This document shows positions 18,821-22,488 of a stretch of 64,000 nucleotides of DNA, piece by piece. The stretch is from Chloroflexota bacterium (GTDB lineage: Bacteria > Chloroflexota > Dehalococcoidia > Lucifugimonadales > UBA3495): the NCBI GenBank assembly GCA_009837355.1, contig VXTR01000060.1:1-64000 (forward strand). The letters run 5' to 3'. Below the pieces are notes generated by a model. It searched no databases. It saw nothing but the letters and a program-made list of their open reading frames with translations, and was not told the origin of the DNA. Position numbers and translations under genes: made by a program. Within the stretch, counting starts at the first letter, position 1; every line of letters begins with the position of its first letter.

Positions 18821-18947
18821 ATTGGCTGGCGGGAGTTTTCAGGAGTCATGTAAAAAATTGCGCTAGCGTCCGCCGCTGTTGATAAGTGATAATATGTAGC
18901 CAGTTCAACACTCCGGTATTCTAACACCAGAGGTCAAGGGGGATATT

Positions 18948-19397
18948 ATGGCTGCATTGGAATTGGCCTACCGGGCGCAAACGTACAGCTCAGGCACCCA
19001 CGGCCGCGCAATCTGTAACGCTCGCACGCATCACTGGGTAGCCGACGATGGCGGCGGCGACGCGGTCTATTCCGGCGAGTTGTTCCTTTCCGGCATCACC
19101 GCCTGCGCCGTCAACATGGTGGAGCGAATCGCCGTTACGGATGACGCCCCGGTGGACTTTATGGAAGTTTCGGCGGAAGCGTACCGCGACCCGGACGCAA
19201 CGCCCGGCGACCTCACCCTGTACGCCGACGTGCGCGTCCACTTCAAAATCTGGGGAGTGGACGACGACCAGGGCAACTACCTGGTGGACACCTGGAAAAA
19301 GCGTTGACCGCTGTACGGTTCGGTCGCCGTGGCGACCCCCAGCACATCGGTAACCGCTGAGTTCGTTGCCGAACCCCGCCCGAAGCACGGCGGTTAG
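18948..19397 (+). CDS. OsmC-like protein, probable selenoprotein (Sec120 at in-frame TGA 19305-19307)
   Basis: Read through its TGA, the frame gives 149 residues, the normal OsmC length, and stops at TAG 19395-19397. The N-terminal part holds the first redox Cys in LFLSGITACAVNMVERIA. The second conserved Cys of the family, in a W-K-x-R-C-P-L-Y-G-like context, is here the TGA: WKKR-U-PLYGSVAVATP. The text after the TGA is therefore clear family sequence. A SECIS-like hairpin follows at 19308-19343. OsmC-like selenoproteins are known from marine metagenomes. OsmC/Ohr proteins reduce peroxides through this thiol pair. The unread alternative is a 119-aa product without its resolving residue, or a pseudogene. 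GGGGGAT precedes the ATG. Confidence 0.8.
19308..19343 (+). promoter_or_regulatory. Putative bacterial SECIS element (OsmC-like gene)
   Basis: Directly after the TGA, GCTG (19310-19313) pairs with CAGC (19340-19343), and GGTCGC (19322-19327) pairs with GCGACC (19332-19337) under a CGTG loop (19328-19331). The apical loop starts 20 bases after the TGA and contains a G at its second place, as SelB-binding bacterial SECIS elements require. Confidence 0.65.
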
Positions 19398-21570: not shown

Positions 21571-22488
21571 ATGCGTATCTGCTCATTTTTGCCCTCGGCC
21601 ACCGAGATTGTTTATGAGCTGGGGCTGGAAGACTCCCTTTACGGCGTAACCCACGAATGCGACTACCCGGCGGCGGCCAGGAGCAAGCCCTGGGTAGTGC
21701 GCAGCGTTTTCGAAGGAACCAACCCCAGCAGCGGCGAAATCAGCCGCGTCATCTCCGAACGCCTGGCCGAGGGCCTGGGCATCTATCACATTGACCAGGA
21801 GATACTGGACGCGGCCAACCCCGACCTGCTGCTCACCCAGGCCATCTGCGAGGTTTGAGCGGTCTCCTCTCGGCAGGTTGCCGAGTCCACCGCCAACATG
21901 GCAAAGCAGCCTGAGGTGCTGTCCCTGGACCCTCAGTACCTGGGGGACGTGCTGGAAGACGTGCGGCGGGTTGGCCGCGCCACCGGTTCGGAGGCCGTGG
22001 CCGACCGCGTAACGTCCCGGATGCAGGAACGCATCGACGACGTAACCCAGCGGGCATCGCTGGCGGATACCCGCCCGAAAGTGCTGCACCTGGAATGGAC
22101 CGACCCCTTGATGTGCGGCGGCCACTGGGTTCCCGAGATGGTCGAACTGGCCGGCGGGACCAACTGCTTCGGCGACAAGGAGATGGGGTCCTTCCCGCTG
22201 GAGTGGGACGCGGTGGTAGAGAGCCAGCCGGAGGTCATCGTGCTGATGCCCTGCGGTTTTGAGGTGCCCCGGGCCTTGCAGGACGTGCCGCTGCTGACCG
22301 AAAAGGAAGGCTGGGACAAGCTGCCGGCGGTGCAAAACAACCGGGTCTTCGCCATCGACGCCAGCAACTACACCAGCCGCTCCGGCCCGCGCCTGGTCAC
22401 CGGCCTGGAGATACTTGCCGAGATGACCCACCCGGAGCTGTTCTCCGGCATGGTGCCCGAAATGGGCGCCCGCCGCATCTACGCCTAG
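21571..22488 (+). CDS. BtuF-like cobalamin-binding protein, probable selenoprotein (Sec96 at in-frame TGA 21856-21858)
   Basis: Read through one TGA, the frame yields 305 residues covering the whole family: MRICSFLPSATEIVYELGL, THECDYP, then TQAICEV-U-AVS, LEWTDPLMCGGHWVPEMVEL, VIVLMPCGFEV and SRSGPRLVTGLEIL. Related proteins normally read C-x-V-C-A-V-S at this site, so the TGA replaces the second Cys of a CxxC pair, giving CEVU. A textbook SECIS-like hairpin follows at 21859-21893. There is no signal peptide, as is usual for this cytoplasmic-looking branch of periplasmic-binding-protein-like folds. Conventional annotation would give two fragments (21571-21858 and 21898-22488). The role of the CxxU pair is unknown; metal or corrinoid binding or redox are possible. 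Confidence 0.82.
21859..21893 (+). promoter_or_regulatory. Putative bacterial SECIS element (BtuF-like gene)
   Basis: It begins at the base after the TGA. The lower stem GCGGT (21859-21863) pairs with ACCGC (21889-21893). An internal loop follows, then a perfect seven-base upper stem CTCGGCA (21869-21875) with TGCCGAG (21879-21885). The apical loop is GGT (21876-21878). A GGU-containing loop 17 bases after the UGA matches the SelB-binding determinant of the E. coli fdhF element. Confidence 0.8.

Follow-up and report, generated by a model that had tools for sequence, protein, structure and literature searches.

What is a TGA doing inside an OsmC-like reading frame? The window analyzed here, 64,000 nucleotides from contig VXTR01000060.1 of a Chloroflexota draft genome, contains a frame that runs from ATG to TAG with a single internal TGA and, when that codon is read as one residue, yields a protein of 149 aa. 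The original prediction assigned selenocysteine (Sec) to this codon, at the second redox cysteine of an OsmC-like protein, and its coordinates for the TGA and for the frame on to the TAG proved exact (Table 1). In what follows we ask where residue 120 sits in the fold, whether the TGA is read through and by what means, and how the product compares with selenoproteins already known.

Table 1. Coordinates of the OsmC-fold gene and its elements within the window
Feature	Position	Strand	Basis
OsmC-fold selenoprotein gene, 149 aa, Sec as residue 120	18948..19397	+	Translation with TGA as U; Pfam OsmC; same TGA in 53/53 order relatives
Putative ribosome-binding-like site, AAGGGGG, 5 nt upstream of ATG	18936..18942	+	Sequence; inference
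Cys53 codon, canonical first (peroxidatic) cysteine	19104..19106	+	Invariant in 75/75 Sec forms, also in four Cys forms; aligned with first Cys of Ohr/OsmC structures
UGA, predicted selenocysteine 120, canonical second (resolving) cysteine	19305..19307	+	TGA in 75/75; TGC/TGT in four distant homologues; aligned with CP motif of Ohr/OsmC
SECIS hairpin, GGUCGC-CGUG-GCGACC	19322..19337	+	Compensatory changes at pairs 15-30, 18-27 and 21-24 after TGA; RNAalifold
TAG, true stop codon	19395..19397	+	Sequence; relatives end at similar length with TAA, TAG or later TGA

The OsmC fold and its redox pair

The PF02566 (OsmC) profile scores the product at 33.6 bits against a cut-off of 27.5, with a match that spans the TGA (residues 35-129, E 5e-8), and also matches 19/19 members of alignment A1. 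An AlphaFold model of moderate quality (mean pLDDT 65, shallow alignment) matches OsmC/Ohr chains with VIA-align Z scores of 10-13 over about 95-115 residues. By profile score and by fold alike, the protein is a member of the OsmC superfamily. Which of the two redox positions does the TGA occupy? In profile alignments to PDB structures, Cys53 falls on the first cysteine of OsmC/Ohr proteins and residue 120 on the second; examples are ...GYAAC...VCPYS... (A. baumannii OhrB, 9jx6) and ...GACTAMT...KCPVHKT... (9wo1). The original prediction was right about the second position, and the first cysteine that it named is present as Cys53, invariant in the 75 Sec forms described below. Profile-profile comparison with NF041052-type proteins sets C53 on their Sec and U120 on their Cys with a poor probability of 1.7%, and we therefore base the positional assignment on the PDB profile alignments.

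Ohr attacks the peroxide with its first Cys, which then forms a disulfide with the second; lipoylated proteins reduce this bond, and catalytic Arg19 and Glu51 of the X. fastidiosa enzyme activate the first Cys (PMC5962072). Here the catalytic Arg aligns with Thr17, three residues before an invariant Arg20, and the catalytic Glu with Gly43, adjoined by a near-invariant acidic Glu44. Because both residues are out of register, Ohr-type peroxidase activity is not assured. The TIGR03561 (Ohr) score is 14.8 bits against a cut-off of 88.85, and by this score and the displaced Arg and Glu the gene product would be placed outside Ohr proper.

How might the pair work? In the mechanism that we propose, a small hairpin downstream of the UGA would recruit SelB, which together with tRNA-Sec would translate codon 120 as selenocysteine; Sec120, at the resolving-cysteine site of Ohr/OsmC peroxidases, would then face the invariant Cys53. 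Fold and motif make a Cys53-Sec120 selenenylsulfide cycle reducing an organic or lipid hydroperoxide the most likely activity, and a substrate of another kind is improbable. Leaving aside the order of attack, we are highly confident of the selenoprotein reading and of the pairing of Cys53 with Sec120. As to the order itself, we favor, with moderate confidence, attack on the peroxide by Cys53 and resolution of the resulting sulfenic acid by Sec120.

Could the same selenoprotein work with the roles swapped, Sec120 being peroxidatic and Cys53 resolving, as the mirror image of ordinary Ohr? Redox selenoproteins usually have Sec at the attacking position, and the out-of-register alignment of the two activating residues of Ohr, Arg and Glu, points the same way. 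Cys53, however, is invariant and sits where the fold normally has its peroxidatic residue, and the catalytic positions have Arg20 and the acidic residue 44 nearby, so that we regard a swap as possible but doubtful. Under a swap, the gene might tentatively be set apart as a separate subfamily of OsmC-fold selenoenzymes with the attacking Sec at the second site, and one genome would then contain two mirror-image OsmC selenoenzymes with different substrates or reductants.

Conservation of the TGA and the downstream hairpin

Homologs were sought in 147 related genomes and in 400 genomes drawn from Chloroflexota. The gene is present in 53 of the 147, with exactly one TGA in each. In all 53, that TGA is the codon of residue 120 and is followed by P-L/I-Y-G/K-S/T/A-V-A-V-A-T; the protein flanking it is invariant among these relatives. 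The phylum survey contributed 23 further TGA forms, 22 of them alignable in full; with the partial L114 left out, the two surveys give 75 distinct TGA-bearing genes, and the TGA falls at the same codon in 75/75. Cys-form homologues, which the original prediction proposed to look for, do exist, in more distant relatives: four genes (L089, L110, L112 and L113) have TGC or TGT at exactly the TGA column and continue in frame, and all four keep Cys53. The gene thus shows the exchange of a conserved in-frame UGA with Cys by which bacterial selenoproteins are recognized. Nor does any relative end before the PLYG segment, the frame continuing in 53/53 order relatives, in the 22 from elsewhere in the phylum and in the four Cys forms. 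The genomes hosting the Cys forms still have SelA. About three Sec/Cys changes are needed on the tree, which is poorly resolved. A scan of genome contigs with the gene returned only close relatives, by name SAR202 and Dehalococcoidia metagenome-assembled genomes, and a plasmid search gave no match.

Bacterial SECIS elements are hairpins just downstream of the UGA with a G in a small apical loop (PMC1088965). Such a hairpin lies 15-30 nt after the TGA and can be drawn as a 7-bp stem tipped by GU or as a 6-bp stem with an NGUN loop. All seven pairs form in 74/75 sequences, against 5.8% expected from codon-shuffled versions in which codons were redrawn from the family's own usage. Among 12 distinct hairpins there are 13 two-sided changes, a number never reached in 10,000 shuffles. 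Pairs 15-30 (G-C to C-G, A-U and U-A), 18-27 (C-G to U-A) and 21-24 (C-G to G-C and A-U) covary; on the tree they changed no fewer than 3, 6 and 10 times, respectively, and almost entirely at third codon positions. The loop, 20 nt after the UGA, reads xGUx, and its two center bases are GU in 75/75. The original prediction had drawn a two-stem hairpin with a CGUG loop, of which the upper stem-loop is real and the lower stem is not conserved: RNAalifold on the 75 sequences returned the upper stem alone, and the neighboring positions that form the second stem of the minimum-free-energy fold are unpaired across relatives. Folding of the single sequence is unremarkable (z -0.83), so the support for the hairpin is comparative. 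The hairpin is missing from the four Cys forms, in which the VAVAT segment has drifted as well; this suggests that the peptide segment may be held in place partly by the RNA.

Does the conservation instead reflect a true stop, leaving a truncated protein of 119 aa followed by a conserved RNA hairpin that acts as attenuator or terminator? TGA does serve as an ordinary stop here, and the hairpin that comes after it is strong. Within the genus, however, single-change codon pairs beyond the hairpin are 338 synonymous versus 128 non-synonymous in this frame, the remaining two frames giving 62/413 and 36/448; as the synonymous excess is confined to this frame, coding continues past the hairpin. Codon-phased conservation of this kind, Cys homologs that read through the TGA column and hairpin changes almost only at third codon positions all argue against a stop, and we consider it very unlikely.

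Selenocysteine decoding and the genetic code

Translation of the TGA as selenocysteine calls for a decoding apparatus, and the genome encodes one. Its tRNA-Sec scores above the Rfam cut-off and is confirmed by ARAGORN with anticodon tca; SelA, SelB and SelD are also encoded, the SelD gene itself with an in-frame TGA. Absence of these genes, which the original prediction recognized as fatal, can thus be set aside. Across the phylum, SelA accompanies the gene in 24/24 cases (Fisher p 0.005), which is weak support because SelA is common there (322/400 genomes). Two of the 53 order genomes with the gene are without a full SelA, both of them incomplete drafts.

Might a variant code assign UGA here to one of the standard amino acids (Trp, Cys or Gly)? 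The Cys found at the TGA column in homologs would fit such a code, but the CysS, IspF, Na/H antiporter and an MFS gene of the window end in TGA, from which it follows that the code is not reassigned, and the Sec-decoding genes are in place; we judge this reading highly improbable. A pseudogene or a sequencing error, for which nothing speaks beyond the source being a metagenome-assembled genome, has a negligible probability, since the same TGA recurs in 75 distinct genes whose genomes are independent of one another and in some cases complete single-contig chromosomes. Insertion of Sec at UGA 120 is, to our reading, a near certainty, with all the support that sequence comparison can give.

The order of genes is mostly kept within the genus: ispD on the opposite strand, the osmC-type gene, a PF00999 antiporter of the Na/H-exchanger family and a PF01497 periplasmic-binding (BtuF-like) gene. 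This last, two genes downstream at 21571-22488, has an in-frame TGA of its own (21856-21858, motif CEVU) with 88-92% conservation through the TGA in 11 relatives, and is a second selenoprotein candidate; the CxxU BtuF type is already in the selenoprotein inventory (PMC13188914). At one further locus (L043, genome G134), the frame downstream of the osmC gene runs into a putative arsenite-methyltransferase-type protein.

Comparison with known selenoproteins

How does this gene differ from the OsmC selenoproteins already described? The first OsmC-like selenoproteins to be reported came from the Sargasso Sea and had the motif UxxT (PMC1088965; PMC2398784). The proteins from marine metagenomes to which the original prediction referred are of this UxxT type, in which Sec takes the place of the first cysteine. 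The window gene shares with them the PF02566 fold, a UGA with a bacterial SECIS and Cys/Sec exchange within the family, but in the UxxT type Sec comes first and Cys second, an order that is reversed here. The classical UxxT kind also occurs in other genomes of the order (L140-L143, UTAMT-type, ...GAUTAMT...RCPVHRTL).

NF041052 (OsmC_like_Se, OsmC-related (seleno)protein) is alike in belonging to the OsmC superfamily and in its in-frame TGA, and two copies occur in the same genome, but its motif, FUEMTQ...NGCWVR, has Sec at the first site in place of the second. The window gene product scores 16.7 bits against the NF041052 cut-off of 95, and no NCBIfam model covers the gene. At the first redox cysteine, where both UxxT and NF041052 types have Sec, the codon of Cys53 is TGC or TGT in 75/75. 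The genome has four OsmC paralogues in all: the window gene, two of NF041052 type (G000:C78, L118/L122; G000:C74, L119) and one with no in-frame TGA (G000:C4, L117).

Ohr/OsmC thiol peroxidases (TIGR03561; 9jx6, 4mh4, 4xx2) resemble the product in fold, in the two-residue redox pair and in the CP motif at the second site; they differ in that the window gene has Sec for the resolving Cys and the catalytic Arg and Glu out of register. In CxxU redox selenoproteins (AhpD-like, SelW-like; PMC13188914), Sec is likewise the second residue of a Cys/Sec pair, but these have other folds and a pair adjacent in sequence, whereas the pair here is 67 residues apart.

An inventory of 2026 recognizes 119 prokaryotic selenoprotein (sub)families, gives each new Sec position a subfamily of its own and enters the OsmC-like selenoprotein once, as UxxT (PMC13188914). 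In the freely accessible literature searched, we found no paper joining OsmC with a second-position Sec. On comparative grounds, we conclude that the window gene is a genuine selenoprotein whose Sec position defines a new subfamily within the OsmC selenoproteins, absent from that inventory (PMC13188914). The subfamily is spread through Chloroflexota, and standard gene calling would cut it at residue 119, as was anticipated for this gene. Alongside the NF041052 and UxxT types, it would provide natural mirror-image enzymes in one fold and even in one genome, so that the contribution of Sec at the peroxidatic position could be compared directly with its contribution at the resolving one.
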